In this document: positions 39,096-57,700 of the stretch, piece by piece
How the letters are laid out: every line of letters starts with the position of its first letter
Position numbering within the stretch: position 1 is the stretch's first letter
Assembly (NCBI RefSeq): GCF_002305875.1
Contig: NZ_CP022098.1
Coordinates: forward strand, 2,232,001 to 2,296,000
From: Cystobacter fuscus
GTDB lineage: Bacteria > Myxococcota > Myxococcia > Myxococcales > Myxococcaceae
Length of the DNA: 64,000 nucleotides
Reading direction: 5' to 3'
Notes under the pieces: generated by a model
The model's database searches: none
What the model was told of the DNA's origin: nothing
What the model saw: the letters and a program-made list of their open reading frames with translations, nothing else
Translations under genes and position numbers: made by a program

Positions 39096-40298
39096 TCAAC
39101 CGCGCATGACACGCTCGGTCCAGGGCAGCTGCCCGTCGTGGTCCCAGGCGTAGCGCAGGTCCGCTACTTGGTCCGAGAACCATTGGTGCAAGGGCTCATC
39201 TGGGCCATAGACAATCTCATCACGCCCCAGGCCACGCACACGGCCCTGGGCATCCACGGCCCAGAGAACCTGCCCTCCAGCCGCCTCGCCGAACACCACC
39301 CAACCCAGCTCACGGCGATACCAGGGAAATTGCACCAATTCCTCATTGCGGCTCACCAGGGAGCCCTGTGCGCCCACACCATGAAGCACGAGCGCGCCCT
39401 GGAAGAGCCGGGCCCCGTTATGGCGGGCGAGCAATCGGCGCAAGGGCTCAGGGGGAGTCAACCCCAACCGGTTGAAGGCGTGTGCGAGTTCCGCATCGCT
39501 GGCTTCAGCGGAGAGCGTGTGCTGGTAACGCTCCGCCTCGCCTTCCACTCGCGCGAGCACCTCATCCAGGCCGGGCGCCTCAGGCGGTGGCTCTTGCGGC
39601 CCCAGCCGGTGGCCGGGCTGCACTGGTCGGGCGTGCGATTCCCCCTCCCAGGTCACCCGGTCGATGCGCAGAACCGGAGCTTCGAGATGCTGCTGGAGGG
39701 CCAGGAAGACATCTCCCCGGATGAGGAGGGCCCGCCACCAGCTACGCGGTCCATTGAACCATGGAGACCAGCAAACGGAATGCCCGGACCACCCTCGTGC
39801 ATCGAAGCGAACGGGGGTAAGGGGAACACCATTGAGCCGCTCGTCCGTGCCCTGGGGGTGGAAGGTCTGCGGGTTGAGCCGATTGAGGCGGAGTTGTGTG
39901 TCCAGCAGAGGCCCCGTATGGCCCTCGGTGTCCAGCCGGTAGAGTCGGTGGCCCGCCACACGGTGGGGGGTCACGTGAGGCACGAGCGTGGCCGTCCACC
40001 CCGTGGCTCCCGCGGCCTCCAACGCCCGCACGAACCGCTCCGAGCACACCAGGTCCGGACCACCGCCGGGCTCCATCAGGTCATGCAATGGCGCCAACTT
40101 GCGATCGATGAGGCGCTCGCGTGGGCGCAGGGGGATTCCATCCGTGTCCAGGGGGACGGGTTGTGCGGGCCCGAGTTCGGCCAGTTCCGGTCCCACCACC
40201 GGAACCAGCCGCACCCAGTCCTCCGCTCTCACGTCCCCGCGCTGCTCCAGGGGACTCCACTCGCTGACCACCCGCTTCCAAGGCATCTCATTCGCCAT
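39096..40298 (-). CDS. SUKH-domain protein, candidate immunity protein
   Basis: The 400-residue protein has an N-terminal half with an Imm11/DUF1629-like pattern (LVCSERFVRALEAAG followed by a beta-rich stretch). The C-terminal half resembles SMI1/KNR4 (SUKH) domains (LGLTPPEPLRRLLARHNGARLF, LGWVVFGEAAGGQVLW, QWFSDQVADLRYAW). SUKH proteins are common immunity proteins for nuclease toxins. It follows the smaller immunity candidate with a two-base gap and is the last gene of the RHS operon. The assignment of the toxin it neutralises is inference. Confidence 0.7.
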   Translation of the reverse strand: MANEMPWKRVVSEWSPLEQRGDVRAEDWVRLVPVVGPELAELGPAQPVPLDTDGIPLRPRERLIDRKLAPLHDLMEPGGGPDLVCSERFVRALEAAGATGWTATLVPHVTPHRVAGHRLYRLDTEGHTGPLLDTQLRLNRLNPQTFHPQGTDERLNGVPLTPVRFDARGWSGHSVCWSPWFNGPRSWWRALLIRGDVFLALQQHLEAPVLRIDRVTWEGESHARPVQPGHRLGPQEPPPEAPGLDEVLARVEGEAERYQHTLSAEASDAELAHAFNRLGLTPPEPLRRLLARHNGARLFQGALVLHGVGAQGSLVSRNEELVQFPWYRRELGWVVFGEAAGGQVLWAVDAQGRVRGLGRDEIVYGPDEPLHQWFSDQVADLRYAWDHDGQLPWTERVMRG

Positions 40299-40300
40299 GA

Positions 40301-40831
40301 TCAGTCGAGCCTAAGCACCTTCATGTCCTTGCCGGTATCGGCGGAGACCTTCGGAAGCTTCCGCTTGGGCTCCAGCACGAATTCATAACCAGCGTGGACG
40401 ATCTGTCTCTTGCGCCCTTTCGTTGCCATGACCCTGAAACCGCGCACCGTCACGGCGTAGATGCCAGGGTGTATTCCCGTATCCTTCCAGGATTCAAACT
40501 TATTGCTCCACTCCTTAAGCACGAGCAAGTCCGCGACGACCAACTGCTCCACCACTCGGAGGGCGTACTTGCCATTCTCCACCAGCACCTCTCCCGGCGG
40601 TGCATAGGGCTCCGAAGACAGATGGACAGCGACGTCGTAGCCGGCGTCGTCGATCGCCAACACAGGGACGATGAGACCCTTGGAGAGCACCTCATCCCCC
40701 TCCTCAGTGGATACATAGCGTGTGAAGAGGTCCGTCCCCTCGCGAATCCTGCCCCCATAGTGCTGGCGCAGCGCGGAGGGATCGAACAACACGAGCCCGT
40801 TGAAATCGGTGTCGACTCTTCCTAGGTGCAT
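40301..40831 (-). CDS. Unknown protein directly downstream of the RHS toxin, probable immunity
   Basis: The 176-residue product (MHLGRVDTDFNGLVLFDPSAL to KDMKVLRLD) starts ten bases inside the end of the RHS gene, the position usual for the cognate immunity gene. It is a soluble alpha/beta protein with no signal or membrane segment, consistent with a cytoplasmic nuclease toxin. No family was recognised. The GC content here is lower than in the rest of the window, as in the adjoining toxin end. Confidence 0.65.
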   Translation of the reverse strand: MHLGRVDTDFNGLVLFDPSALRQHYGGRIREGTDLFTRYVSTEEGDEVLSKGLIVPVLAIDDAGYDVAVHLSSEPYAPPGEVLVENGKYALRVVEQLVVADLLVLKEWSNKFESWKDTGIHPGIYAVTVRGFRVMATKGRKRQIVHAGYEFVLEPKRKLPKVSADTGKDMKVLRLD

Positions 40832-43800
40832 TTTGGAGCCTTCTTCCCCACCTGCTCACGATTCCACTTCATGAGTCGGTTGAACGCCTGCAAAGGTGTT
40901 ACGTTGCGGGCGAGAACCTCCCCCGTGGCAGGGATGCGCAGATCACCGCGCATGGTCATCCCCTTGAGCCCCTTACGGAGCGCGGAAAAAAGTTGCTTGT
41001 CAGTGCCCTTCCAGGGTCCCTGGATCTTGCCCAACTGGGGCTTCACTGCGCGGTGAAGTTCCTCGTGCATACCAGAATGATAAGGCGTTGGGAAGAATGT
41101 TGGGGTGTTGAACTTGGTACCTAGATGCTGGAGGCCCAGGCTGTTGGCCTTGCCACGAGGAACGAGGTGGTGACCCATGCCATTGGGATTCCAACTCCAT
41201 GGCATCTCGCCCAGGGGGTCCAGGAAAGCGAGCGGATCGATTGTATAAGCGTAGGCGTTCAACCCTCCAACCAGTCCCAGAGGATCCGGAGTCGTGTAGC
41301 GGCCCAGTTCGGGGTCATAGTAGCGGAAGCGATTGTAATAAAGCCCCGTCTCCGAATCGGCGTATTGCCCAGGCCACCTCCATGGACAGTCCGTCCGTGA
41401 GGTATCGGGCATACCCACTCCAAAAACATCGAGTTGCATGGACCAAGCGAGTTGGCCTGCGACATCATAGAGTCCGATGGGTGTACCGAGGTGATCAGAG
41501 CTCACGCAATAATGTTGCCCGCCTTGTACCTTGACAAGCGGAGCAAAGCTCTCCGTGTCAAACACCCATGTCACTGGCTCTTGCTCGTCTTCCAGTTCGT
41601 GAAGCACGACCTGGCCATCCCACAACCATCGAGTTTCCCTGGCTCCGACACGCTTGCGGACACGGCGCCCCAGAGCATCGTATGTGAACGAGACGAGTTC
41701 ACCTGTGGGAGTCACCACCTCTTTGAGCAGACCCGAGCCATTGTACCGGTAGCTCCAGCGTGAGCCATCAGGACGCACCTTGGCCACCAGGTTGCCATCC
41801 ACGTCATGAAGATAACGGGTGCCATCCGCCTCCTCGAGGATGTTGCCCGGGCCGTAGCGCCGGTCCGAGCGGTCCATTTGGCGGAACAGATTGCCACTGA
41901 CGTCCACATGTCTGAACTGCCACGTACCGTCAGGCAGGTGCGCTGCGGTCAGTTGACCGAGAGGGTCATGCTGAAAGCGGGTCGTGCCACGCAAATCGTC
42001 CGTCAAGGACAGTAGGCGATCCCTGCTCCGCCAATGGAAAAGTGTTGCATGAATTCGTCCCGGTCCATTGTGCACCTGGCGCATCTCGGGGCGGCCAGCA
42101 GAATCATAACGCCAGGAGATGGCCACACCTCCAGGCAGACGGCGCTCCAGTTCACGCCCCAAGGGATTGCGCAAGAAGTCGAGCCTGCTCGTGTTGGCCT
42201 CCGCCTCGACGCCCAACGAACGGAGATCACCCATGGCATCTCTGACAAACGTAGCCTGCAGCCCCAAGGAGGATGCCAGCCGGCTCCGCTCGCCCGATGC
42301 GTCGTATTGCACGGCTACCCAGTGGTCGCCCTGACTCTCGCGCAGGAGCCGGCCAGCAGCATCATACTCGAACCGGACAGTCCCTCCCTCGCCCACTGCC
42401 TCTACGAGTGAGCCATCCAGTTGGTAGGCCAGACGCTCCTCTCCACCACCCGAATAGAGTCTGTGGACAAGGCGGCCCGCCTCATCATAAGTGCACTCCG
42501 TGGTGGAACCGCTGGGCCGTTGGATGCGAACCAACTGGCCTGCGCCATCGTACCCATAGCAGAATGGGTGCTCATTGGCGACATACTCTTCTACAGGAAA
42601 CCCTCGAGGATCGAGTACGAAGCGGGTCGCATGACCGGCCTGATCCCTTACCTCGAGCAGGTGACCCTCGGTATCATATTTCAGGCGTATCGTGCTCCCG
42701 GCATCCTGCCGCCATGCCAGCCGATGGAAGCCCTGATAGCCAAAGCGAGCCTCCGAGTCATTATCTTGTAGCGCAACCAGGTTCCCCTCGGCATCGTACT
42801 GGAACCGACTCACGTTACCGTCTGGTTCTCTTGACTCGACCACTCGACCCTCTGCGTCGTAGCGCAGGTGATGGGCACCACCTTCTGGCTCCGCGACCTT
42901 GATGACTCTCCCCAATCGATCATGGGTGTAGTGTGCCTCGGCGCCATTAGCGAGTTGAAGACGCGAGATACTGTAGGAATTGTCGTAGTCCAACGCCAGT
43001 CGGGCACTATTTGGGTAGACAATCTGCCGGAGCAGACCCCTTTCGTAGACAAAGCGCGTCCGCTCCCCCAGTGGATCTTCGGACCACAGCATCTGGCCAT
43101 AGGAGTCATGATTCCAACGCCAGGTATTGCCGCGGGGATCCACAATCACACTGGGATTCCCTTGCTCATCATACTGGATGGATACCTTGGCGCCATCAGC
43201 GCCCTCGAAGCCAACGCAGTTACCCCGAGCATCATACGTATAGCGTTGGACGCGCCCAAGCGGGTCCACTTCCTTTACCAGGCGCAGGGCGTCATCATAT
43301 TCGCGTTGCCAGACATTGCTCAGCGGGTCCACCTCCTTCACCACCACGCCGCGCCCATCGGAGTAGTAGGTGGTGGTGTGGCCCAGGGAGTTGGTGACCT
43401 CGGTGACGCCCCTCTCCTTGTCATAGAAGAGCCGGTGATCATGGATGCCGCCGTCGCCCCAGGTGTGTACGCACCAGGCCTCGGCTCCCTGGCCGTCGTA
43501 CTCGAAGTGGAAGCTCAGGCCCGTGCGGTCGGTCTCGCGCACCAGCAGGTGGCCGCTATATTGGTAGCGGGCCGCATGCGCGAGCGCGTCATGTGCCTCC
43601 ACCAGATCTCCTGCCTCCGAGTACACATAGCGGTTGTAGGGCACGAGGCCCGGCTGCGTGGGGTGAGGCAGCCATGTCCTCACCAGCCGCCCCTTGGCGT
43701 CGTGTTCGAACCGTAGCCGCCTCCTGGCGCTGTCCACCACCCACTCCAGCCGCCCACGGCTGTCATACTCGTAATGAATGGCATGCCCGGCCCGGTTGCG

Positions 43801-44871
43801 CGTGCGAGTCACCCGGCACAGTCCAGGGTCCTCGCCCCCGACAAAGCGCAGCTCGTGCACCAGCCCATTCGCCAGTTCCACGCTCCACTGCAGTTCCCCC
43901 ATGCGCCGCAGGGTCAGCCGGTCCATCGGCTCGTACACCGCCTGGCCCAAGGGCGCCCGTTGCCTGGGGAACTGGCTCATATCGAACGCGATCTCCCTCC
44001 CATCCTCCGCTCGGTACACCACCTTCCCCTGTTCCTCCCACACCGCCAGGTCCAGCGAGTGGCTCCAGCCGTGGCCCACCGCCGAATCGCGCTCGCAGAG
44101 GCTCGAGGAGTAGTTGCGCTCGAACTTGAGCGGAATGGGGCCCGGCAATTCCCAATCCACCGCTTTGGTCACCGCCCGCCCCGTCACCACGTCCACGGGG
44201 TGTCCCGTCAGCGTGCAGATGGCCTTGTGAATCCGATCGCGCGCCCGCTCGCCCAGTCCCACCTTGTCCATGACCTTGTTCGCCGCCTTGTGGATGCGGT
44301 CGGACACGTCACTCATCTTCCGGCTGGCCTTCTGCAGATTGCGCAGCTTCTTCAATCCCTTGAGCAGTGCGCCCAGGGCCAGCTTCATCATCAGCCCTGA
44401 CAGGGAAATCGTCGGAGGCCCGCCCACTATCACCGGGGGACCCGCCGGAATGGACAGGGCAATCGAGGTGGGAAGCAGCAGCGTCTTGGCGCCCGGCCCC
44501 TTCTTGCGCGGCGGCGAGGGCATGCCGATGTCCTGGCAACTCAGCACCGGCAGCGTCATGTAGGTGAAGGGCTCGTCGTCCACCATGACGGTGGAACTGC
44601 CCATGAAGGTCTCGTTCTCGTTGCCAGGCGGCTTGGCGAAGACGCCTCCAATGGGGAAGTGGGGAGGCAGTGTCACTCCGCCCGTACCCGCTTGCGCTCG
44701 CGGCAAGCCGTTGACCAACACCGTGGAACCGATGATGGGGATGTAGTCGAACGGGTCGAAGACAATGCCGATATGCGGGTGGGGAATGGGCACCACCGCC
44801 CCGGGAGGGGTAATGATGAAATGGATGTCGATTCCCAACACCGGGTCCAGGTGCTTGACCGCAGGCATCAT
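40822..44871 (-). CDS. PAAR-like RHS polymorphic toxin with predicted HNH/Endo VII-type nuclease tip
   Basis: Two ATGs at 44871/44868 overlap the previous stop; the product is ~1349 residues. A PAAR-like/DUF4150-type N-terminal domain ([28 protein letters not shown]) and a DUF6531 domain ([12 protein letters not shown]) lead into many YD repeats. The RHS-associated core ([41 protein letters not shown]) follows. The variable C-terminus (~120 residues) contains [14 protein letters not shown] and [12 protein letters not shown], the spaced histidines of a GHH/HNH-type nuclease. It is presumably delivered by a type VI secretion system. GC content falls toward the 3' two-thirds. Confidence 0.9.
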   Translation of the reverse strand: [1349 protein letters not shown]

Positions 44872-45773
44872 GCCGCTTGACCTCCCGCGGCCTGGGTATC
44901 GGGCCGCCAATCGTTACCCAGGAGCGACTCGGCCTCGACTTCCAGACGCCGCGCGGCGGCCTCCCCCTGGCGAGCTTGGCCCAGCCGCACCCGGGCCTCC
45001 GCCACATAGGGCAGTGTCGAGGTGGAGCGTGCCTCTGGCTCGAGCGCCAGCCCTACGCTCCAGGCCTGCTCAGTGGCTTCCCAGGCCTTGTCCAGTTCAT
45101 GGACGGACTCCCGGCAGAAACTCGCCATGCGCCAGCACTCCAGCTCCAGGCGCGCATCCACCAATTTTCGCGCCATGGGCGCCGTCTCCTCGTAGAGCAC
45201 GGCTGCCTGTGCCCACTCCTGCATCGTCACCAGCACCGCCCCCATCGCCATGCGAGACTTCAGCCTCAACTCGGCCCCCTGGACCTCGCCCCTGGCCTCG
45301 GCATCCACCGCGGCCCCCTCCGCCTTGCGGTAGTGCTCCAGCGCCTCCGTGGGCTTGCTGGCCACCAGGAGCGCCGCACCCATGGCCCAGCGCGCCGCCA
45401 CCACCAGCGCCGGCCAGCCCTCTCCGGCCGCCAATGACGCCGCTTCCTCCCCCAGCCGCGTCACCAGATTGAGTTCGCCGCGGCCCGCCGCATTGCCCAA
45501 TCGCACCAGCAACTCCCGGTAGCGCCCTCCCGCCGGATCCAGGCCCGCTGCCCCACGAGCCACCTCCTCCATCGCCCCTGGCATGTCCAGGTCCGCCACG
45601 CTCGTCCTGACCCGCTTCGGCTCCGCCCGCGCCAGCGGCTCCAACACCCTCACCCGCACATCATCCAGCACCACCACCCGCACATTCGGCGAGCGCAGGT
45701 ACGCCAATGCCTCGTGCAGCCACTGCCACCACGCTTTCGCATCCGCCACCTCGCCCGGCACCAGCACCACCGC
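44868..45773 (-). pseudogene. 3' part of an RHS-associated helical/TPR-like gene split by the IS element
   Basis: The fragment carries the last ~301 codons of the interrupted gene (LAVVLVPGEVADAKAWW onward) and ends ATGA-overlapping the RHS start. It is rich in alanine/leucine helices resembling tetratricopeptide repeats (ALVVAARWAMGAALL, LECWRMASFCRES). In frame it continues the N-terminal piece at 47524-47895 once the IS and one CTAG copy are removed, giving ~425 residues. Position before a PAAR-RHS gene suggests an adaptor or chaperone for toxin loading, which is inference. A GTG at 45770 could start a shortened product. Confidence 0.8.
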
Positions 45774-45776
45774 TAG
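45773..45776. repeat. Left CTAG direct repeat (target duplication)
   Basis: CTAG stands immediately outside the left inverted repeat, and the same four bases lie outside the right one (47523-47526). Because CTAG is palindromic, element ends rather than target could contribute, but removing the element plus one copy restores the gene frame. Confidence 0.75.
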
Positions 45777-47522
45777 AACACCGACCGATTTGATTTTTTA
45801 GTAAAATCAGGGATTTACGTGAGGGGGTGGACAACAGTGGCTGAATTTGATCAGGTCGGCACATGACCTTAGCCGTCAGTCCGCCGAAGGTGACCGGAGA
45901 GATAGCTCGATGGACTCCTCCGCGGGAGTTGAACGAGCAAGAGCAACAGATTGTCGAACGGATGAGCCGTAACGGCAAGCTGTTCGCTTTTCTGCGTCTG
46001 AATCGGCACAAGCTGATGGATGAGGCTTTTCAGGCGGAACTGGCCTCCATGTACCGCCAGACAGGAGCAGGGAAAGTGGCTATAGCACCCGGGCTGATGG
46101 CAATGGCAATACTCTTACAGGGATACATGGGAGTGTCGGATGCCACCCTGGTGGAACTGACGGTCTTCGACTTGAGAGTGCAGATGGTGTTGGGCTGGTT
46201 GGGTCACAGCGAGCCGGCGTTCTCCCAGGGGTCGTTGTATGAGTTTCGTCAGCGGCTGATGAGAAACCAAATGGACCGGCGCCTCCTGGAGAAGACAGTC
46301 GAGGTGGCGCGGGAACAGAAAGAGTTCGGTGAGCGAAAGCTCAAGACGCTGTTGCGAGTGGCGATTGACTCAAAGCCACTGGAGGGAGCTGGCCGGGTAG
46401 AGGACACCATCAACCTGGTAGGACACGCAGCGCGCAAGGTGATGATGTGCGTGGCGAAGCTGCTGGGATGTTCCAAGCAGCAGGCCTGCCGAGAGGCGGG
46501 TATTCCCTTGTTGTTGGAAAAAAGTATCAAGAAGGGATTGGATGTGGACTGGAGCGAAGCGGGGCAGAAAAAGAAAGCGCTGCAAGCCCTGCTCGAGCAA
46601 GTGGAAAGCATGATGTCCTGGCTAAGAAAGAATCTGGCAGAGGAGATGGAAGAGGAGCCTTTGAGGGAACACGTTCAGACTCTCGAGCAGATTCGCAAGC
46701 AGGACCTGGAGCCGGACCCAGAAGGAGGAGGTGTCCGCGTTCGCCAGCAAGTGGCGGAAGAGAGACGAGTGTCGGTAGAAGATGGGGAGATGCGTCATGG
46801 ACGCAAGAGCAAAAGCAAGCGCTTCAACGGATTCAAGCAGCATGTGGCCACGGCGCTGGACGAAGAACTCATCCTGGCATGTGCTGTGACGCCCGCCAAC
46901 CGACCTGAAGCGGAGGCAACACCGGCGCTTGAGAAGGACATGGAGAAGCAAGGAGTGAAGATTGACGAGTTACACATAGACCGGGGGTATATCAACAGCA
47001 GTATCGTGGACAGCGTGCTCGAGGAGGGAGGGGAAGTGCTGAGCAAGCCGTGGAAGGCACGCAATGGGGAGTTGTTCGCGAAGTCAGACTTCAAAATAGA
47101 TATGCGAAGCCGGACCATCACGTGTCCGGAGGGGAAGACAATGCGCTTCGAACTGGGAAAGACAGTCGAATTCGCGACAAAGGACTGTGAGACTTGTCCA
47201 TTGCGCGAGAAATGTACACAAGCCCAGATAGGACAAGGACGGACTGTGGCAATCAGTGAAGATGAAGCGCTCCAGCACAAGTTGCGCAAATTAATGAAGA
47301 CACCTGCTGGGCGAGAGCGACTCAGGAAGCGAGTAGGGGTGGAACATCGACAAGCCCATATAGCGCGACGACAGGGGCGTCGTGCGCGCTATCGGGGCGT
47401 GCGTAAGAACGTCTTTGATCTACGACGTGCGGCCAGCATCCAGAATTTGGAGACATGGCAACGCCATCTAGAGTTGTCCCAGCAGCAGGTGGGATGATGT
47501 GGTTTTTAAATCGGTCGGTGTT
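45777..47522. mobile_element. IS1182-family insertion sequence (1746 bp)
   Basis: The element is bounded by perfect 15-bp inverted repeats AACACCGACCGATTT (45777-45791 and 47508-47522 inverted) and CTAG direct repeats. It carries one intact transposase gene and is lower in GC than its surroundings. A small dyad TGATTTT-TTAGT-AAAATC just inside the left end (45792-45809) might limit impinging transcription. Intact ends and gene imply a recent insertion. The element interrupts the gene upstream of the RHS toxin. Confidence 0.9.
45863..47497 (+). CDS. IS1182-family transposase
   Basis: The 544-residue DDE transposase has the family N-terminal region (LRLNRHKLMDEAFQAELASMY, AILLQGYMGVSDATLVELT, DLRVQMVLG). 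Candidate acidic residues lie in RVAIDSKPLEG, HIDRGY and RVGVEHRQAHIARRQG. A zinc-ribbon-like cysteine set follows (CPEGKTM, CETCPLREKC). Length and order fit an intact IS1182 transposase. It sits 86 bases inside the left repeat and stops 25 bases before the right end. Confidence 0.93.
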   Translation: MTLAVSPPKVTGEIARWTPPRELNEQEQQIVERMSRNGKLFAFLRLNRHKLMDEAFQAELASMYRQTGAGKVAIAPGLMAMAILLQGYMGVSDATLVELTVFDLRVQMVLGWLGHSEPAFSQGSLYEFRQRLMRNQMDRRLLEKTVEVAREQKEFGERKLKTLLRVAIDSKPLEGAGRVEDTINLVGHAARKVMMCVAKLLGCSKQQACREAGIPLLLEKSIKKGLDVDWSEAGQKKKALQALLEQVESMMSWLRKNLAEEMEEEPLREHVQTLEQIRKQDLEPDPEGGGVRVRQQVAEERRVSVEDGEMRHGRKSKSKRFNGFKQHVATALDEELILACAVTPANRPEAEATPALEKDMEKQGVKIDELHIDRGYINSSIVDSVLEEGGEVLSKPWKARNGELFAKSDFKIDMRSRTITCPEGKTMRFELGKTVEFATKDCETCPLREKCTQAQIGQGRTVAISEDEALQHKLRKLMKTPAGRERLRKRVGVEHRQAHIARRQGRRARYRGVRKNVFDLRRAASIQNLETWQRHLELSQQQVG

Positions 47523-47526
47523 CTAG
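47523..47526. repeat. Right CTAG direct repeat (target duplication)
   Basis: This is the right-hand copy of the CTAG flanking the IS element; it forms the end of codon Val-Leu in the split gene on the minus strand. Confidence 0.75.
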
Positions 47527-47895
47527 CACCTCGCACACGGACTCGTAATGGCGGTGCAGCGCCTCGCAGGCACCGAAGAATGCCTCCACCCCTGACTGTC
47601 CGGGAGTCATCCGCCCGAGGCTTACCCCCTCCTGGCTCTCTTCCACCATCGCCACCAGGGCCGCGCGCAATTCGAGCCCATACGTCTCCGGCTGCAAGAA
47701 TGGGGTGTCGAGGCGCAGGAAGAGGTCCGGACATTCCCCGGTGCGCTCATCGCCCTCCTTCTTCAGCCAGGCCTCCACCATGCGTGCCTCGCTCGGCTCC
47801 ACCAACCAGCGCAGCAGCCGCGCATCAGGCGCCTGAGCGAACTCCACCCACTGGTTGTGCAGCCATCCCAGCCGCTTTTCCACCGCGTTCTTCAT
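47524..47895 (-). pseudogene. 5' part of the RHS-associated helical/TPR-like gene split by the IS element
   Basis: The ATG at 47895 has AAAGAGG eight bases before it and opens 124 genuine codons (MKNAVEKRLGWLHNQWVEFAQ to SVCEVL). The frame then runs into the IS and stops at 47506 after five foreign codons (EHRPI). The piece is the natural N-terminus of the fragment at 44868-45773. A truncated product could still be made, but the gene as a whole is broken by the insertion. Confidence 0.8.
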
Positions 47896-48282
47896 GTGGC
47901 CTCTTTCCGTTCCCACTGGCCCGCCATCATCGGCCCGACTGGATTCCCGAGGCGCTCATTATTGGCAATTGGCAACCCGTTCGGGCAAACGAACCGTTGC
48001 CTGCACGAGCAGAGGAGCGGAAATACGTCCAGCCTGGATGCAAGGGGGGAGCCCGCGCACACGTCAGCGCGAAGCCCACCAGGCCAGGTGGAGGCGCTCC
48101 CGTCTGGAAAATTGCTTCGTCAGCGGAAAACCCAATCCCCCTGGCGGAGGGCGCTTCAGGAGGACATGCGGCCGACGAGGGAGAGGATGGCCTCCCCGTA
48201 CCGTGGATGCGCTGCAGAGCCAACGGGGCCGCGCGGTGGCGATGGCGCCGAGCAGGTGGTCCGTCCGAGATGACCCACAGGT
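47896..48282. other. ~390 bp with no assignable gene
   Basis: This stretch lies between the start of the IS-split gene and the toxin remnant. Open frames exist on both strands, as expected for GC-rich DNA, but none has a ribosome site, family motif or biased codon use. It may hold decayed upstream parts of the toxin gene whose tail is at 48283-48546. Nothing further can be supported. Confidence 0.5.
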
Positions 48283-48546
48283 GCCTACAAGTATCAGCGC
48301 AACGAGGAGGGGCCGGAGGAAGTTCAGGTTTCCAGAGGTGGAGAGGAAGTCTGGGTGGACGGTGCCCGCATGGAAAGGCGAGGCTGCTTGAGGTCAATCA
48401 CGTGGGTAACGCTGAGAGAAGTCCGTTCATTTCTGGCTCGAGCTGTGGCGAGACTGCCTGAGCCATGGTTCTGGACATGCTCATTCCTTTTCGAGGCACT
48501 CCTGAAGAAATTTGGCATTCCAGGTGGGGTTGTTGTCCGTCCCTGA
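48283..48546 (+). pseudogene. Decayed restriction-endonuclease-fold toxin C-terminus (Tox-REase-5-like)
   Basis: Frame 1 encodes AYKYQRNEEGPEEVQV then GGEEVWVDGAR. The match then jumps to frame 3 (ARLLEVNHVGNAERSPF, stop at 48461) and returns to frame 1 for FEALLKKFGIPGGVVVRP and a natural stop at 48546. These three blocks appear in the right order in Tox-REase-5-type polymorphic toxin domains. About 50-60 residues of the middle are missing. Frameshifts and the deletion make it a pseudogene. The probable immunity gene follows after 14 bases. Confidence 0.7.
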
Positions 48547-48560
48547 GACAGGAGAATCAA

Positions 48561-48932
48561 ATGAAGTTCTTCATCATCGCGGAAGACGGCGGCCTGCCAT
48601 CCGCATCTGACCTGGCGTTCCATGTGTGCGCGAGCTGGCCCGGCGCCACGGTGATGCCAATCTCCAATCCCGAGAGAAGCTATACCTTGGAGTTCCATGT
48701 CCCCATGGCTGATTCGCGACTGGAGGGTTTGCTTCACAAGACGAGGAGCTCCATGACATTCGAAGGTGTCTCTCTTCGGGAGATTTCAGAGTTCGTCCGG
48801 TGGTGTCGCTCCCTCGTGCCTTCTCATGTGTCCCTCCTCTTCTGCGACGAGAGCATGAATGGCGAGGTGAAGGTGACTCCGACGATGTCCGCAGCACAAA
48901 TCCTCGAAGCATTCCATGCGAGTGGAGGGTAG
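48561..48932 (+). CDS. Orphan immunity-like protein
   Basis: The ATG at 48561 has AGGAG six bases upstream. The 123-residue soluble protein (MKFFIIAEDGGLPSASDL to QILEAFHASGG) is intact, although the toxin fragment just before it is not. Its position directly after a Tox-REase-5-type end is where the cognate immunity gene normally lies, and the same small protein type accompanies such domains in myxobacteria as far as I recall. A longer frame beginning at 48465 overlaps the toxin remnant. Confidence 0.65.
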   Translation: MKFFIIAEDGGLPSASDLAFHVCASWPGATVMPISNPERSYTLEFHVPMADSRLEGLLHKTRSSMTFEGVSLREISEFVRWCRSLVPSHVSLLFCDESMNGEVKVTPTMSAAQILEAFHASGG

Positions 48933-48996
48933 GCCACTGGAACTGCCCCGAGAGATACTCCCAGGGCAGCTCATGGCGTTTTGCCGTGCCTTCATC

Positions 48997-50910
48997 TCAG
49001 TCCAGCCCCGGGTTCGCGGGATTGGAGGCGGACTTGTCCATGATGCCGGTGGGTCCGTCGTTGAGCACGCATTCACCACTCACCTGCTCGACGATACCGC
49101 AGCCCGACTTCGGATTGCCCCAACGGCTGGTGAGGTTGAGCCACGACAGGCTCCCGTCATACGTGCCCGGTGACCGCCAGGAGAAGGGCACGGTGCTGTT
49201 CCAGGTGTACCAGGGGATGCCACGGCCCGTGTCATCGGCGAGGAAGTCCCCGTTGGGGAGGTTCTTGTAGATGTGCCGGGCGGCGTCCGGGTAGATGCCG
49301 TGCGAGCCCAGGGCCGCGTACACCTCCGGGTGGAAGCCCGCCACGGCCACGTTCTTGTCCCCGAAGTCGAACGTCTGCCCTCCCGCGTGCTGGCTCAGGA
49401 ACATCCGCGACGGCCGGCCATCCACGAAGCGCACCGTGAAGTGCTCCCAATCCCCCACGTGGTTGCCGAACGTGGAGTAGCCGCCCAGACAGCCAAGGCG
49501 CGAATCGTACAAGCCGATGCACACGCGCTTGCCGTTGTTGTACGGGTAGAAGGTCCAGTAGACGATGTCCGTGGTGTTGGTCGGCTGGCCGTTCTGGGTG
49601 CGGTTGATGATCTCCGCGTAGATGGGCACCTGGCCCGGCCGCTGACCATCGAGGAACTGGGGATCCGTGCAGGAGTCACACCCCAGCGACTGGTTGGTGA
49701 CCATGTGCCCACCGGACTCGTGCACGTTGGGGAGGAAGAACTCGACCGAGGACGGGAAGTAGTGCTCCTCCGGATGCAGCCACACGAGCGGCGCGTACTG
49801 GGAGGCCGTCACGGCATCCACGGGCACGCCCTTCATCTCCGGGTTGGCGAGGGCGCTCTTGTTGAGGACCCAGTAGCGGTTGCCGCCGGTGTCCGAGTGG
49901 CTGGGCCGGGCGATGAAGGTGGAGAGCGCCAGGCCTCGATGGTCCCGGGGCTGCACCTGCCAGATACCCACGTCGTGGTCCGCGCCCGAACCCTCGTCAT
50001 TCCAGAGCCAGGAGGGGTTCGCCGGGAGCACGTACTCGCCGCGTACGCAGCGGATGAGATCGGTCGAGGGCTTGTCGTAACCGAGTACCGTGACGGTGCC
50101 CAGGCAGGTGTAGCCCGCGGCGGGCAGCGGCTCCCAGATGGAGACGTCATGGGTGCCGCCCGAGCCCCAGTCGCTCCACACCCAGGCGTAGTCGACGGGC
50201 CGCGCCAGCACATCCCCCTCGCCGTAGGCCACGAAGCTCGTCCGGGGCGCCGAGCCATGGAAGGGCTGGGCCACGTCGCCCAGCGAGTAGTAACCGGGGG
50301 TCTGGCCGAGGTTGGCGCGCCAGATGGCCACGTCGTTGTCGGCCCCCGTCCCGTGGTCGTCGTAGACCCAGTTGAACGCGGTCGCTCCCTGGACGTAGAG
50401 CCGCTGGGGGTAGCGCATGACCACCTTGTCCGAGCGCAGCGTGAACTCCCCGCTCTGCCCACCGGAAGCGGTCGCCGCGACGAGCTTGTAGGTGCCCGGT
50501 GACAGGGAATAGGACAAGCGCGAGGTGAGGCTTCCCCCGCTGTCATTGTCCTGGGCGAGGACGTTGCCATTCGCATCCAGCAGATAGAGGTAGGTGTCGA
50601 GTGACGCGGTGAGATGGAACGTCACCGTGCTGGCGGGTCCGGTGTAGTCCACGATGAACTGCCGGTTGGCCGGGCTGGAAGGGTTCATCCCGCCCGAGCC
50701 GTTCCAATAGCCATACAGGACGTTGCCCTGCTGCGTGGAGGGAGACTCCACCACCATGCTCGAGGCCACATCGTCGAGGGCGAATGGCGCCTCCATGCCG
50801 CATCCCACGCTCGTGGTGAGCGCGGCGCTCATGAGGAATGCGCGCCAGTGACGGCTGCTCGAGTTCAGGGGAACGGAAGTGGCGGGTCCTCGGAGACGGC
50901 TGTTCTTCAT
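48997..50910 (-). CDS. Vps62-related secreted protein with PPC domain
   Basis: The ATG at 50910 has AGGACCC before it, giving 637 residues; an upstream frame to 51138 runs through the promoter. The N-terminus has a signal peptide ending in a candidate lipoprotein Cys (TTSVGCG). A bacterial pre-peptidase C-terminal-like domain follows (YLYLLDANGNVLAQDNDSGG, LSYSLSPGTYKLV), then Vps62-type repeats (WVYDDHGTGADNDVAIWR, WVWSDWGSGGTHDVSIW). A C-terminal Vps62 core with LVWLHPEEHYFPSSVEFF and FGNHVGDWEHFTV completes it. The biochemical role of the family is unknown. A -24/-12 promoter lies 50 bp upstream. Confidence 0.85.
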   Translation of the reverse strand: MKNSRLRGPATSVPLNSSSRHWRAFLMSAALTTSVGCGMEAPFALDDVASSMVVESPSTQQGNVLYGYWNGSGGMNPSSPANRQFIVDYTGPASTVTFHLTASLDTYLYLLDANGNVLAQDNDSGGSLTSRLSYSLSPGTYKLVAATASGGQSGEFTLRSDKVVMRYPQRLYVQGATAFNWVYDDHGTGADNDVAIWRANLGQTPGYYSLGDVAQPFHGSAPRTSFVAYGEGDVLARPVDYAWVWSDWGSGGTHDVSIWEPLPAAGYTCLGTVTVLGYDKPSTDLIRCVRGEYVLPANPSWLWNDEGSGADHDVGIWQVQPRDHRGLALSTFIARPSHSDTGGNRYWVLNKSALANPEMKGVPVDAVTASQYAPLVWLHPEEHYFPSSVEFFLPNVHESGGHMVTNQSLGCDSCTDPQFLDGQRPGQVPIYAEIINRTQNGQPTNTTDIVYWTFYPYNNGKRVCIGLYDSRLGCLGGYSTFGNHVGDWEHFTVRFVDGRPSRMFLSQHAGGQTFDFGDKNVAVAGFHPEVYAALGSHGIYPDAARHIYKNLPNGDFLADDTGRGIPWYTWNSTVPFSWRSPGTYDGSLSWLNLTSRWGNPKSGCGIVEQVSGECVLNDGPTGIMDKSASNPANPGLD

Positions 50911-50959
50911 GGTGGGTCCTTCTGCGGTTGGGAAGAGACTCGGGGTTCGGGTGCCCTCG

Positions 50960-50975
50960 AGCACGCGTCGTGCCA
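50960..50975 (-). promoter_or_regulatory. Sigma-54 (-24/-12) promoter of the Vps62-like gene
   Basis: TGGCACGACGCGTGCT on the minus strand has GG and GC ten bases apart, as sigma-54 promoters require; the -12 element is GTGC rather than TTGC. It ends 50 bases before the ATG. The following bases (CTCGAGGGCACCC) are also shared with the GON gene promoter at 54635. The gene for an FHA-sigma-54 activator starts just beyond, in the opposite direction. Confidence 0.72.
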
Positions 50976-51047
50976 GCATGCCCCTTGAGGGCACGTCCGG
51001 CGATCCGTGGAACGGGCCGCGGGAAGGAAGTGCTACAGTCGTGGGCG

Positions 51048-52658
51048 ATGTCCCGCTCCGAGCCCCGCGATTCCCAGTCCCCCCCGCTGGTCGCCGAGGT
51101 CTCCACGGCCATTGGCCACGAGCGGCGCGCCGCGGCATCCGCCGACCAGGTGGTGCCGGTGCTGACCCTCTTCTCCCATCCCACGGCCACTCGGGCTGGA
51201 GAGCGGCTCCTGCTGGAGGGGATCGCCTCCGGCCGGGAGGTGGCTCTGTCCCGCAACGGCCCGAACTTCACCCGGCCTGGAGAGACCTTCGGGCAGCCCC
51301 TGTCCGACCCTTTCGTGAGCCGCAACCCCCTCGTGTTCTCACCGGGTGAAGGGGGGCGGCTCCGGCTGCGCGTGGGCGAGGGCGGAACCCGGGTGGTGGT
51401 GGACGAGCAGCTCGTGACGAGCCGTGAATTCACGCCGGAGGAGCTGGCGGCGGGCGTGCTGTTGGAGCTCTCGGGCCGGGTGGTGTTGTTGCTGCACCAG
51501 GACTCGGGCAGGGCGCGAGCACCCGGTGACACGCTGGGCATGGTGGGCGAGAGCCCTGGCATCCGGCGCGTACGCGAGCACGTCCAGCGCATCGCCGACC
51601 TCCATGTCCCGGTGTTGATCCGGGGGGAGACCGGGACGGGCAAGGAACTGGTGGCCCAGGCCATCCACCAGCACGGCCCGCGCAAGGGGCACCCCTTCCT
51701 CAGCGTGAACCTGGGCGCCATCCCCAAGGAGCTGGCGGCCGCCGAGCTGTTCGGCGCGCACCGGGGTGCCTTCACCGGAGCGACCCGGGAGCGCGAGGGC
51801 TTCTTCCGGGCGGCCCAGGGGGGCACCCTGTTCCTCGACGAGGTGGGCGAGGCGCCTCCGGAGGTGCAGGTGATGCTGCTCCGGGTGCTGGAGACCGGCG
51901 AGCTGTACCCGGTGGGTGGGCATACGCCCATCAAGACGGATGTCCGGCTGATCTCCGCGACCGATGCCAACCTGGAGGAGCACATCCGGGAGGGGCGCTT
52001 CAAGGCGCCGTTGCTGCATCGTCTGGCCGGTTATGAGATCCGGCTGCCACCCCTTCGCGAGCGCCGCGAGGACATCGGGATGCTGTTCCTGCACTTCGCC
52101 CGGGAGGAGTTGCAGGCCATTGGCGAGGCCCACCGCCTGACGCCCCGGGATCCCTATGCCGAGCCATGGTTGCCGGCGTCGCTCGCGGTGCGCCTGCTGC
52201 GCTACTCGTGGCCCGGCAACATCCGGCAGTTGCGCAACCTCACCCGGCAGTTGGTGATTGGCAGCCGGGGGCAGCCCGTGCTGCAACTGGACTCGCGGCT
52301 CGCCGGAGAGCTGGACGCCGCCGCGGGGCCCATCCCGAAGCCAGCGGCACCCGCCGCTCCTCCCTCGGCGGTGGCTCGCCGCAAGTCCACCGAGGTCACC
52401 GGAGACGAACTCCTCTCGGCGCTCCGGCGGCACGCCTGGGATCTCAAGTCGGCGGCGGATGCGCTCGGAATTCCGCGCTCCTCCATCTACGATCTCATCG
52501 ACAAGCACCCGAACATCCGCAGGGCGGGAACCCTGAGCGCGGAGGAGATCTCCGCCTGCCATCAGGAGTGCGGAGGCGACCTGGACGCCATGGTCCAGCG
52601 CCTGGAGGTGTCCAAGAAGGCGCTCAACCGGCGCCTCAAGGAACTGGGACTGGCCTGA
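51048..52658 (+). CDS. FHA-domain sigma-54-dependent transcriptional activator
   Basis: From the ATG at 51048 the protein has 536 residues. An N-terminal FHA-like domain (~30-150; EVALSRNGPNF, SDPFVSRNPLVF, GRVVLLLH) replaces the usual receiver. The AAA+ core has Walker A GETGTGKE (~193), the sigma-54-contacting GAFTGA loop (~239), Walker B GGTLFLDEVGE and WPGNIRQLRN. A Fis-type helix-turn-helix (KSAADALGIPRSSIYDLI) is followed by a second helix-turn-helix-like tail. FHA domains bind phosphothreonine, so activity is probably set by a Ser/Thr kinase. It diverges from the Vps62-like gene; a near-identical but broken paralogue is at 62300. Confidence 0.93.
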   Translation: MSRSEPRDSQSPPLVAEVSTAIGHERRAAASADQVVPVLTLFSHPTATRAGERLLLEGIASGREVALSRNGPNFTRPGETFGQPLSDPFVSRNPLVFSPGEGGRLRLRVGEGGTRVVVDEQLVTSREFTPEELAAGVLLELSGRVVLLLHQDSGRARAPGDTLGMVGESPGIRRVREHVQRIADLHVPVLIRGETGTGKELVAQAIHQHGPRKGHPFLSVNLGAIPKELAAAELFGAHRGAFTGATREREGFFRAAQGGTLFLDEVGEAPPEVQVMLLRVLETGELYPVGGHTPIKTDVRLISATDANLEEHIREGRFKAPLLHRLAGYEIRLPPLRERREDIGMLFLHFAREELQAIGEAHRLTPRDPYAEPWLPASLAVRLLRYSWPGNIRQLRNLTRQLVIGSRGQPVLQLDSRLAGELDAAAGPIPKPAAPAAPPSAVARRKSTEVTGDELLSALRRHAWDLKSAADALGIPRSSIYDLIDKHPNIRRAGTLSAEEISACHQECGGDLDAMVQRLEVSKKALNRRLKELGLA

Positions 52659-52728
52659 GCGCCAGGAACTCCTGAATCGCGGTAGGTCGGCGGCGAAGCG
52701 TTGGCGCAGGTTCGAAAGGAATAGCACC

Positions 52729-53175
52729 GTGGCGAAGCATCAACTGATCATCCCCGAGAACATCTACGCGTCCTTCCCGGTTCGTTCCGAAGCAGGGCGG
52801 CTCGAGGAACTCCTCACGCTGGTGATCAACTGGAAGGGAACCTGGGAGCCAGGCGATCAGCCCGAACAGTATCTGGTGGTGGCTCCAGGGGATGAGCTCG
52901 AGATCGTGCTCTCTGCCGAGCGGCACCAGGGGGGCAGCTTGTGGCTCTTCAAGCGGGAGCTCCCCTTGCTCCTGCCTGAGAATGCAGTCCTGAGTGATCG
53001 CACCTGGGCACGCGTGGACCTCGAGCGCGGGAGCAGGGTCTTCCAGGTGAACCACGCGCTCTCCCGTGACTCGGGAGAGTCGCGCTATGACCTGCGCGTC
53101 AGTGAGCTGAGACAGTATCCAGAGCCCATCGTCGGGCAGGGACAGCCCGGCACCCTGACGGCTTCCAAGCCCTGA
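52729..53175 (+). CDS. Unknown 148-residue protein downstream of the FHA activator
   Basis: A GTG at 52729 preceded by AAGGA nine bases before gives MAKHQLIIPENIYASFPV to GTLTASKP. It is a soluble protein without signal peptide, with a beta-rich pattern (EQYLVVAPGDELEIVL, GGSLWLFKRELPLLL). It lies 70 bp after the activator on the same strand and could share its transcript. No family was recognised. Confidence 0.65.
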   Translation: MAKHQLIIPENIYASFPVRSEAGRLEELLTLVINWKGTWEPGDQPEQYLVVAPGDELEIVLSAERHQGGSLWLFKRELPLLLPENAVLSDRTWARVDLERGSRVFQVNHALSRDSGESRYDLRVSELRQYPEPIVGQGQPGTLTASKP

Positions 53176-53234
53176 GGGCGGTTCAGGGCAACCTGGCCGT
53201 CGAAGATTTTCCCCTGTTGGGAGCCGGTGGTGGG

Positions 53235-54584
53235 CTACGCGGGAGGCGGCGCGTACTGGAGCTGCAACTGAGCGCCGCGACCGTTGAAGGGATGGTCGGC
53301 ACCCTGCACCGACATCCAGCCGCACTCCCCCCGGTTCCACAGGTCCACCACCTGGTTGTCCGAGCTGTAGGTGGCCCCACCGGAGCCGTAGTAGCCGACC
53401 GCCACGAACTCGCCGGGCGCCGCCGCGAAGGGCGTGCCGCGCAGGTCGACGTTGCCCAGGCCGGGGTTGCCGAAGTCGCAGTTCATCGCCGCGGCATAGG
53501 CCATGGAGGTGACGGCATCCCCGTGCCACAGCAGCCCGGAGGAGGTGGAGAAGGTCTGGTCACCGGTGCTCACGCGCAGGGTGGTGGGGTCGATGCGAAC
53601 CTTGGAGAAGAGGGTCCGCACGTTGGTGGCCCCCCAGCCGTTGTTGTAGCCCGCGGTGTACTGGGAGAAGTTGAGTGAGGGGCCCGTCGACGGCAGCGAC
53701 AGGTACTCGGCGGGAGTGCCCGCCATGTCGCGGCACCAGGCCGTCCAGGGCTTGGAGGCATCACCGTTGACGTACAGCACGTACTCACCATCCGCCGCGG
53801 AGGGATGGGCGGTCTTGATGTCCTGGCAGCTCGCCGGCGTGCTCCGCCTGTACTGGAGTTGCAACTGAGCGCCGCGGCCGTTGAAGGGATGGTCGGCACC
53901 CTGCACCGACATCCAGCCGCACTCCCCCCGGTTCCACAGGTCCACCACCTGGTTGTCCGAGCTGTAGGTGGCCCCACCGGAGCCGTAGTAGCCGACCGCC
54001 ACGAACTCGCCGGGTGTCGCCGCGAAGGGCGTGCCGCGCAGGTCGACGTTGCCCAGGCCGGGGTTGCCGAAGTCACAGTTCATCGCCGCGGCATAGGCCA
54101 TGGAGGTGACGGCATCCCCGTGCCACAGCAGCCCGGAGGAGGTGGAGAAGGTCTGGTCACCGGTGCTCACGCGCAGGGTGGCGGGGTCGATGCGAACCTT
54201 GGAGAAGAGGGTCCGCACGTTGGTGGCCCCCCAGCCGTTGTTGTAGCCCGCGGTGTACTGGGAGAAGTTGAGCGAGGGGCCCGTCGACGGCAGCGACAGG
54301 TACTCGGCGGGAGTGCCCGCCATGTCGCGGCACCAGGCCGTCCAGGGCCTGGCCCTGTCGCCGCCGAGGAACAGCACGTAGGGGCCATCCGCCGCGGAGG
54401 GGTTGGCGTTCTTGATGTCCTGGCAGCTCGCCGGGCCGGTCGTGAGCGCGGCCCGCGTCTGGCCTGGCTCCGTGGGGGCCTGTGGCTGGGCCTCGGGGCT
54501 GTTTGGCTCCTCCATCCCGCAGGCGGGGAGGACGGCGAGGCTGGCGGCGAACATCAGCTTCTTCCAACGGGGGGCGTACATCAT
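53235..54584 (-). CDS. Two-domain GON lipoprotein
   Basis: Two adjacent ATGs (54584, 54581) open a 449-residue protein with a lipoprotein signal ending LAVLPAC. Two GON domains (~52-245 and ~252-449) follow; each begins ASCQDIK and includes [19 protein letters not shown], a [16 protein letters not shown] block and [21 protein letters not shown] domains are best known from the C-termini of ADAMTS9/20 proteases; in bacteria they are found on secreted proteins of unknown role. The two copies are nearly identical over most of their length. A sigma-54-type promoter ends 51 bases before the start. Confidence 0.88.
53254..53837 (-). repeat. GON-domain DNA repeat, unit 2 (C-terminal)
   Basis: This unit aligns with 53851-54434 at a constant offset of 597 bases (199 codons). 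Long stretches are identical, with a divergent patch around 53746-53795 matching 54343-54392. Near-identity including third codon positions implies recent duplication or gene conversion. Confidence 0.88.
53851..54434 (-). repeat. GON-domain DNA repeat, unit 1 (N-terminal)
   Basis: This unit is the partner of 53254-53837 and encodes the first GON domain. Its few silent and replacement differences lie mainly near the domain start (RARPW versus SKPW region). Confidence 0.88.
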
Positions 54585-54634
54585 GGCGGGAACTCCGGGT
54601 TCAGTGAGTCTTGAATGAACTCGGGGTGTCCTTG

Positions 54635-54650
54635 AGCACGCCGCGTGCCA
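54635..54650 (-). promoter_or_regulatory. Sigma-54 (-24/-12) promoter of the two-domain GON gene
   Basis: TGGCACGCGGCGTGCT on the minus strand has the GG-N10-GC spacing and ends 51 bases before the ATG. The 5' context (GCTGGCACG) and 3' context (CTCAAGGACACC) closely match the promoter at 50960-50975, so both genes probably answer to the same FHA-type activator. Confidence 0.72.
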
Positions 54651-54776
54651 GCATTTCCCTGGAACTCTTCTGGGGGCTCTTCAGAGGAGAACCCTCGCGG
54701 GGAAGGGTCTGGGAGGAGGGGCGCGGCTGTCGGCGACATGTCGCCGACAATCGCGAAACGTCGCGGCCCCAGGGGC

Positions 54777-57700
54777 TCAGGGCCCGCTGGACTGGAGGCG
54801 CTGGAGGGTGTCGCCCCACTCCCGCTGGAAGCCCGGGTTGGCGGAGAGCGCGCTGGAGAGATCCTCCCGGGCCTGTCTTCGCCACTCCTGCTTCTGTCCG
54901 GGGGGAGCGGAGGGGAGCGACGCCTGGATCGCGAGAAGACTGCCTCGCAAGAGCCGGGCGTCTGGCCATCCGGGACGAACCGCGAGGAGCTGCTGGGCCA
55001 GCTCCAGCCCTCGTTGAAGCGAGGGGCCCGGGTCCTGCTTGCCCTGCATCAGTCGGGTGGACCAGCGACGGAGGAAATGCCCGAAGCCGATGCGGAACTC
55101 CTGCCGCTCCGGAGCCAGCTCGAGACCCTTCTGGAAGGCCTGGAGCGCCTCCTCGGAGTCCTGGGGGCGTCCTCCTGGAGAGAGCGCCTTGGCCCCCAAC
55201 GCCTCACCCAGGGAGTACCAGGCCTCGGCGTGGGTCGGATTGTGAGCGAGGGCCCGCCGCAACGCCGCCTCGGCCCGCGTGCTGCTGGGGCGGGGATCGC
55301 GCCCGTGCTCCAGCTCGAAAGTGGCCAGGATGGCATGGACCATGCCGCGGTTGGCCAGGGCTCCCGCGTTCTCCGGAAGCCACTGGAGTGCCAGCCGCAG
55401 GGCCTCGTCGGCCGCGCGCACGCTCGGGCCGGGATCCTCTCCCCGGGCACGCAGGTACAGGGCTCGATGGGCGAGCACCTCACTGAGGTTGATGTGCCCG
55501 TAGCCGCTTTCGGGTGCGAGGGTCACGGACTGCTCGCAGGCCGTCCGGGCCTGCTCCAGCGCGGGGAATGGATCCCCGCCGCGGTCCCAGGCCGCCTGGG
55601 CCTGCTGGACCCGTGTCAGACACAAGCCATTGTGGAGCTGGGGAATGCCGGGGCTGAGCTCGAGCCCCTTCCGGTACATCTCCGCGGAGCGCTCCAGCGA
55701 GGGACCGGGCTCACCTCCCGACACGCGCAGCCGCTGGGCCACGAGCGCATGCGCCAGTCCCGCGTAGAAGTAGGGCACCACGTGCCCGGGGTTGAGGGCC
55801 CGGGCCTTGTCCAGCGCCGCCAGTGCCTGGGTGAGATCTCCGTCCGGAGCCGGGGCCCGCGGGTGGGTGGCCCGGGTGTAGTACGCGATGCCCAGGTTGA
55901 TCCATCCCTCCGGCACCTGGCCGTCCAGTTGGAGGGCGGAGAGATAGGACTCGATCGACTTGCCGTAACCGGGCAGCGGATCCGCGCCCACCTGCTCGTC
56001 GTAGTCGGCCCACGTCTTGTGGACCATGCCCAGGTTGAGGTGGAAGTCGTAATCCCTTTCCTCCGGGGCGATGCTCTCGAAGCTCTCGACCGCCTTGCGC
56101 AGTTGCTCGCGCGGATCCAGGGAGTGGCTCTGGCGGGTATAGCCCCAGATCCAATAACCCTGCCCCAACTCCAGCCGGGCCTTCGAACGCGAGGGCTCGA
56201 GCTCCAGCGCGCTCCGCGCGGCGCTCACCGCCTTCTCCGGCAAGGTCTCCGAATAATCGCCCAGATTGCGTCGATGCTCGGCGAGCCGCCGGTAGAGGCG
56301 GGACTCCAGCACCCGGGCGTCGTAATGCTCCGGCATGGCCACGAGCGCGCGGGAGACGGCCTCGAGGGCCCGGGTGTAGTGGGGAGCGACATCGCCCTTC
56401 CCGTAGAGCTCCAGGATCAGCGCGCCGTACTCCAGCCCTCCCTGGGCCGTGTAGATCGAGGCCACGCTCTCGCCGCTCGCCGCCGCCTGGGCATAGGCCT
56501 TCCGGCCCGCCTCGAAATCCGCCAGCGCGCGCTCGTGCTCGCCCAGGTTCCAGTTCCGCATGGCGCGGGCCTGGAGGATGTCTCCGCGCAGCGTGGGAGC
56601 CTCATGGAACCAGGACAGCTCGGTGCCGAGCGTGTCCAACAGGGAGAGGGCTTCGTCCCACCGGTTCTCGTAGAAGGCGAGCAGCGCCGCCACGTACGCG
56701 GTGGAGGGAACCTCGGCACCTTCACTCTGACGGAGCCAGGCCAGCGCCGGCTCCCGGTAGCGACGCTCGACCTCGCGCTTGCGAGCCTCTCGCCGCTCGG
56801 CGTCGCGGAGGCGCTCGGCTTCCAGCAACTGCTCCTGGTATTGGTGCCCCGTCACCAGGGCCAGTGCGTAAGCCACCCGGGGCTCGCGGAAGCCGTGCTT
56901 CCAGGCGGACTCGAGGGACTCGCGAGCCCTGACCTCGTCTCCGAGTGCGAGGTAGCCGCGCCCCAGCGCGTAGTGACCGGGCCCCACGGCCTGCTCGCCC
57001 GCGGCCTGGATCTCCGCCTCGAGCGCCGCCATCCTCGCGCGGATGGCGCGCTGATCCGCGCGCGTGTCGTGCAGGTGGGAGAGGTCCGAGTAGCGCGCCA
57101 GTGCTTCGATGCGTTCCACGGACTCGGCGAAGCGCCGGGCCAGGCGCTCGCGCACGGCGGTTTCGCGGCGGGCCAGCACCGTCTGGCCCAGCGCCAGGAG
57201 CACGAGCACTGCCGCCACCGAGGCCACGGATGCCACGAGCCGGTGCTTGCGGAGCTTCTTGCGCAGGCGGTACCAGACTCCGTTGGAGCGGGCCCGTACC
57301 GGCTCGCCCGACAGGAAGTGGCCGAGTTCCTCGGCCAGGGCGCGCGCGGAGTCATACCGGGCCGAGCGCTCCTTCTCGAGGCACTTGAGCGCGATGGCCT
57401 CGAGGTCCGCGGGGATGTTCGGATCCACCGCGCGCGGTGGGCGTGGCTCCACCTTGAAGATGTTGTTGAGCACCTCCAGGCCGTTGCCGCCGGGAATGGG
57501 CGGCTGGCCCGTCAACACACTGTAGAGGGTGGCGCCCAGACTGTAGACGTCCGAGCGGCGATCCAGGTGGGAGACCTCGCCGCGAGCCTGCTCGGGCGAC
57601 ATGTATTGGGGCGTGCCCATGACCGCGCCGGTGACGGTGGCCCCATCGTTCCAGTCTCGCGCCAGCCCGAAGTCCATCACGTAGGGGCGCAGCGTCCCAT

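Follow-up and report, generated by a model that had tools for sequence, protein, structure and literature searches.

A former toxin-immunity module in Cystobacter fuscus: a wrecked Tox-REase-2 toxin and a probable orphan immunity gene kept beside it

Positions 48283 to 48932 of the window, by which we mean the whole 64 kb stretch of Cystobacter fuscus DNA that was analysed, raise the question of whether a toxin gene once stood there, how it was destroyed and what the small open gene behind it may now do. A reading made from the sequence alone had proposed a toxin remnant followed by an intact orphan immunity gene. The features of the locus are:

48283-48378, plus strand: toxin remnant block 1, frame +1, from the start of the putative Tox-REase-2 domain through the DG motif (tblastn E 2e-14 to the relative L030)
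48372-48485, plus strand: toxin remnant block 2, frame +3, around the ExK motif, whose Lys codon is now Asn, with an in-frame TGA at 48459-48461 (tblastn E 6e-10, DNA alignment and translation)
48487-48543, plus strand: toxin remnant block 3, frame +1, the final 19 toxin codons, 3' of a net 92-base deletion and followed by TGA at 48544-48546
48550-48554, plus strand: AGGAG, a likely ribosome-binding site by its sequence, 6 nt 5' of the P0001 ATG
48561-48932, plus strand: P0001, putative orphan immunity gene of 123 aa, an open frame whose homologues have an open toxin gene directly 5' of them at 12 of 31 places

The whole window was searched by tblastn with the toxin ORFs of 12 relatives, some of them incomplete, and 48283-48543 was the single clear toxin site, the best E value in the rest of the 64 kb being 0.003. 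The remnant scored 66.6 bits, which none of 500 dinucleotide shuffles of 48200-48560 reached (best shuffle 30.4), and a chance origin of the blocks is ruled out by the whole-window search together with the shuffles. Alignment with the intact pair of L030 gave DNA identities of 79.7% over 48284-48484 and 79.1% over 48486-48930, with one base missing ahead of block 2 and a net 92 bases gone between blocks 2 and 3. The frames run 1-3-1 because the missing base and the net deletion combine, and the two frame changes cancel, so that block 3 is back in frame 1. The three ordered blocks that the sequence-only reading had described in these frames, ending in FGIPGGVVVRP at 48543, are present, the internal deletion it had noted is the net 92 bases of the alignment to the L030 pair, and the significant block matches that it had proposed to look for were found among the relatives' toxins at the two E values listed above. 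The N-terminal two thirds of the toxin, around 250 residues, are absent from the window; in what is left the DG motif is retained and ExK is altered to ExN.

The same reading had called the domain Tox-REase-5-like, and this call has to be replaced. Five intact relatives were scanned, and the C-terminus of each scores 34.5 to 45.1 bits with PF15646 (Tox-REase-2), whose cut-off is 27.6; at E 1 or better PF15646 alone was found in these five proteins, and Tox-REase-5 was absent from the reported matches. When two pieces of the remnant were searched directly, neither Pfam nor NCBIfam gave a model for them at E 1, and the assignment of the remnant to Tox-REase-2, made by sequence comparison, rests on the intact relatives. 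D55-G56 and E66-x-K68 are invariant in all 10 relatives, and Zhang 2012 (PMC3482391), in its entry for Tox-REase-2, gives the motifs as E, DG, [DE]xK, T and W. An NCBIfam scan of the five intact relatives returned one weak unrelated match only, and the AlphaFold2 model of the toxin domain was poor (pLDDT 61.8) and was left out of the structure searches. The toxin N-terminus resembles an ordinary signal peptide by eye, and no lipobox was seen by eye in four toxin N-termini; these readings and the NCBIfam scan lend no support to a place among the SitA outer-membrane-exchange toxins, which stays conceivable. The N-domain also precedes other C-termini: two of six further N-domain proteins scanned have a Colicin-DNase/WHH tip, both from the genome G006 (L132 and L134, that is G006:C293 and C91), and in the remaining four Pfam gave nothing above cut-off; the nuclease tips behind the same N-domain suggest that it may be a modular carrier.

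P0001 starts 14 nt past the last stop of the toxin remnant and has no stop within its 123 codons; with AGGAG 6 nt before the ATG, this agrees with the earlier description of the next gene as intact and with a good ribosome site. A comparison with known immunity families had also been proposed, and it gave no match: P0001 hit no family at E 1 in either Pfam or NCBIfam, and 19 homologues searched against Pfam gave five families with one member each, at E 0.038 or worse and none of them an immunity family. PADLOC returned nothing for P0001 or for the Rhs protein of the window. Six columns, W26, F45, M49, G56, W81 and E97, are invariant in the 19 homologues and all are kept in P0001. AlphaFold2 predicts a confident alpha/beta fold (mean pLDDT 93.2). 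Foldseek with this model gave a best E of 0.0084 and none of 878 matches at E 0.001 or lower; by VIA-align the best match was SirA (4tps; Z 8.0, with 92 residues superposed at rmsd 2.3), and TBP and Roco COR domains scored at the same level. We read these matches of a predicted model as a common arrangement only, with no confident relative. Against PDB sequences the immunity profile reached a best E of 0.11 and the toxin profile one of 0.21. A scan of 47900-49100 for sigma-70-like promoters came back empty, which says little because shuffles yield just 0.3 on average. The nearest immunity proteins having an intact toxin are 72-74% identical to P0001.

A search with the 123-aa protein found homologues in 6 of 59 genomes, and the alignment of 19 homologues had matches in 10 of 145 genomes of the order, the same 10 among 195 of the phylum; toxin matches are confined to these same 10 of the 145 genomes of the order. 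Named loci with homologues include two in Archangium sp. SZUA-606, one in Archangium violaceum Cb vi76 and one in a Myxococcaceae MAG. At 12 of 31 places an open toxin gene of the whole query length lies directly 5' of the homologue, among them G006:C621, whose toxin is without a signal-like start. In intact relatives the toxin stop falls between 4 nt within the immunity gene and about 20 nt ahead of its start, the distance being exactly 16 nt in four of them (L029-L032). A separate toxin search gave 13 intact toxins, one of them cut by a contig end, and all 13 have an adjacent immunity gene; one toxin-like match, in G087, has no complete immunity gene and is a relic in which toxin and immunity are fused.

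At 11 of the 31 places the toxin is broken or absent and the immunity frame is uninterrupted over at least 103 residues. These are, with G000 as the window's own genome (a single contig of 12.35 Mb) and G001, G002 and G003 from the same genus, the window, G003, G001:C20, G000 at 1606, 2561 and 12029 kb, G030:C9, G010 at 11163 kb, and G086:C90, C75 and C127. They come to about eight loci once same-locus cases are grouped by synteny (the window with G003 and G001, and G030:C9 with G010 at 11163 kb). G030:C9 was scored as broken on one frameshift in a draft assembly that could be a sequencing error, and the tail-only remnants at G000 2561 kb and G086:C90 come from reading translations and were not reported by tblastn. 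The rest of the census consists of one toxin open to the contig end (G006:C998, scored intact as far as visible), one in-frame toxin deletion (G001:C23, scored as neither), three truncated immunity genes (G006:C66, G030:C1 and G087 at 5339 kb) and three places that are incomplete or near contig ends (G086:C201, G006:C894 and G006:C97). As judged from these sequences, toxin loss with immunity kept is a repeated outcome among the relatives.

At four loci the first immunity domain is immediately followed by another (G000:C1 4526243-4526953, G001:C23, G086:C75 and G006:C998), and these tandem domains were not counted as separate places; both domains lie in one open frame of 297 aa in G000 and in G001, and in one of 273 aa in G006:C998. 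The own genome holds one Tox-REase-2 gene, one intact pair and four orphans, and its sole match to PF15646 at E 1 is the intact gene at 4526 kb. Its orphan at 12029 kb has an immunity gene 87% identical to the cognate of a syntenic intact pair in G001, and other DNA occupies the toxin position of that pair, so that an in-place toxin deletion is, by synteny, visible at a second locus of the same genome. Distances between immunity proteins correlate with those between toxin domains (14 pairs, r 0.81, p 0.0001), a correlation that does not prove specificity because over 12 pairs the N-domain correlates nearly as well (r 0.83) as the C-domain (r 0.85), with partial values of 0.44 vs 0.54. Specificity between immunity protein and toxin is thus suggested by these distances.

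The history of the locus can be followed within the genus. Window positions 50987-54893 are common to G003 in two blastn pieces (95.6% and 94.1%), and G003 and G001 have about 8 kb of upstream DNA in common (95.9%); these shared flanks therefore indicate that the gene probably stands at the same locus in all three. Window positions 40000-48290 and 48940-50986 had no blastn match in the stretch of G003 that was searched, and the fourth same-genus genome, G002, had no match at all. The lesions differ: the window retains the ExK region lost in G003, G003 retains a piece lost in the window, and G001 keeps a piece of the N-domain and the tail. P0001 is 92% identical to the G003 immunity protein and 81% to that of G001. 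The immunity gene in G001:C20 (L006, 1498-2994) is cut at residue 103 and continues in a 498-codon frame with a Pro-rich stretch and a terminal Peptidase_M91 domain (E 3.6e-20), which may be either an immunity-effector fusion or a by-product of deletion. Comparison across these genomes shows, at the level of sequence, the module architecture, the decay of the toxin, the open immunity frame and the repeated decay in relatives.

We interpret the locus as a former toxin-immunity module in which the toxin was destroyed and the orphan most likely still guards against the Tox-REase-2 toxins of kin, and we give this interpretation a probability of roughly 0.85. The initial proposal of a toxin remnant with an intact orphan immunity gene is well supported by the intact two-gene homologues and by the other lesions in same-genus relatives. 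At the ancestral locus two genes would have formed a module, first a toxin of about 370 aa and then the immunity gene; the toxin would have had a signal-like N-terminus, a modular N-domain and a C-terminal Tox-REase-2 nuclease. The toxin would have been wrecked as its N-terminal two thirds were lost, its frame shifted, an inner segment was deleted, a stop arose within it and the ExK motif changed, and the immunity gene, remaining open, would have become an orphan. P0001 most likely still binds and blocks Tox-REase-2 toxins delivered by related myxobacteria that have intact copies, and the cell would be disarmed but shielded. We infer that the toxin was exported and delivered and acted as a nuclease, and that P0001 binds such toxins and gives protection today.

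The same history could also have left P0001 as a decaying leftover, still open for lack of time and no longer protective, which we consider rather unlikely. Between the window and G003 the immunity genes differ by 16 synonymous and 11 nonsynonymous changes (dN/dS 0.19, Fisher p 3e-5), and dN/dS is 0.37 for window-G001 and 0.30 for G003-G001; in the G030-G010 comparison the paired immunity genes have 0.12 and the toxins 0.19. When polarised, nonsynonymous to synonymous changes are 7:4 on the window branch and 0:6 on the G003 branch, with 5 and 5 ambiguous, and residues 18-25 hold 7 of the 25 changed codons, part of which a small compensated frameshift could explain (by eye). The 7:4 ratio and this grouping mean that P0001 may be losing constraint, and the truncated immunity genes at G006:C66 and G030:C1 and the G001 gene cut at residue 103 and joined to other sequence point the same way. 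Against such decay stand the 123 codons without a stop, the six invariant residues retained, the confident fold and the G003 orphan without any polarised nonsynonymous change. From these substitution patterns, the G003 orphan appears clearly constrained, whereas constraint on the window copy is doubtful; retargeting and early decay would both fit its changes. PMC12247911 reports nonsynonymous change at the predicted interface of working orphan immunity genes, and PMC12077181 reports cross-protection in Myxococcus at 46% identity. A wider proposal, which we hold only tentatively and with considerable doubt, is that the 123-aa family is an undescribed Tox-REase-2 immunity family, that in this group of myxobacteria its toxins were repeatedly lost by independent events, and that the clustered changes in the window copy would retarget an orphan shield to the toxins of neighbours and would not be decay; repeated toxin loss with immunity kept would then let genomes drift to a disarmed-but-shielded state.

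Orphan CdiA-CT/CdiI cassettes arrive without the N-terminal delivery part, and the remnant could likewise be a displaced cassette of toxin tip and immunity gene that did not decay in place. In favour of such an arrival, the homology starts at 48283, all but coinciding with the beginning of the nuclease domain, the remnants in G003 and at G000 1606 kb start near the same point, and the upstream window DNA (40000-48290) has no blastn match to the G003 locus. G001, however, which shares the upstream 8 kb with G003, retains a piece of the N-domain, and therefore a full-length gene probably once stood there; in addition, tblastn finds no second toxin of the Tox-REase-2 type in the window. We regard a displaced cassette as improbable. 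That the 123-aa gene has some other role in the toxin operon, as an unrelated or a regulatory partner, and is no immunity gene is very improbable: it matched no immunity family in Pfam, NCBIfam or PADLOC and its predicted fold resembles common alpha/beta arrangements weakly (best Z 8.0), but in the intact pairs that were found it is a small gene right behind the toxin, it is repeatedly kept without the toxin, no intact toxin was found without it, and a second copy directly follows the first at four loci.

The suggestion that a second toxin was once present at this locus is fair in its wording because an Rhs gene sits at 40822-44910; the remnant and Rhs were unrelated in the scans. Beside the Rhs gene, two minus-strand frames (44868-45770 and 47506-47916) look like halves of one gene, and an IS1182-type transposase gene (45863-47497, plus strand) lies between them. 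The window also has a 5.4 kb direct duplication (3707-9070 and 9241-14604, 92.6% identity) and a 585-base tandem duplication (53253-54434, 95.7% identity) inside a minus-strand frame at 53235-54584.

Returning to the former module with its toxin destroyed, orphan immunity genes are a kind already known, but which toxin went missing is often a matter of guesswork. In this case the wreck is still attached, other same-genus genomes carry other lesions and near relatives have intact pairs, and it is therefore possible to test in what order things happened and what became of the shield. Within the open-licence literature we found neither the pairing of this immunity family with Tox-REase-2 nor a report of a toxin pseudogene with a retained immunity gene, and for myxobacteria the term 'orphan immunity' was absent among the matches listed.

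Toxin loss with immunity kept had been described as a known outcome of toxin turnover, and it is known from Vibrio cholerae: Kirchberger 2017 (PMC5361080), on T6SS orphan immunity arrays, describes effectors that were replaced or lost while the old immunity genes stayed behind, plausibly as a defence against kin in which the effector persists. In those T6SS clusters old effector pairs are displaced by new ones, whereas at about eight loci here the toxin has decayed or been deleted in place and the window has no intact toxin of the same type. In gut Bacteroidales, PMC12247911, on rAID orphan immunity genes, reports divergent orphan immunity proteins that bind and protect; those lie in recombinase-associated arrays with SUKH domains, whereas P0001 is single, has the toxin relic still attached and belongs to an unlisted family. 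Closer in host are the AHH-Imm11 (PMC12077181) and SitA/SitI (PMC5562445) systems of Myxococcus, which are myxobacterial polymorphic nuclease toxins with the immunity gene downstream, as here, but of other toxin and immunity families. Immunity outnumbers toxin in AHH-Imm11 also, DK1622 having 20 imm11 to 14 ahh loci according to PMC12077181. SitA proteins are described in PMC5562445 as lipoproteins, whereas the toxin N-terminus here looks by eye like an ordinary signal peptide. The intact relatives share with Tox-REase-2 of PMC3482391 the DG and [DE]xK motifs and pass the Pfam cut-off; the table row for this family in that paper, the one paper found to name Tox-REase-2, has only Actinobacteria for its range and no immunity partner, whereas our comparison places the family in myxobacteria (Myxococcota) and offers, in an unlisted immunity family, a candidate partner for it.
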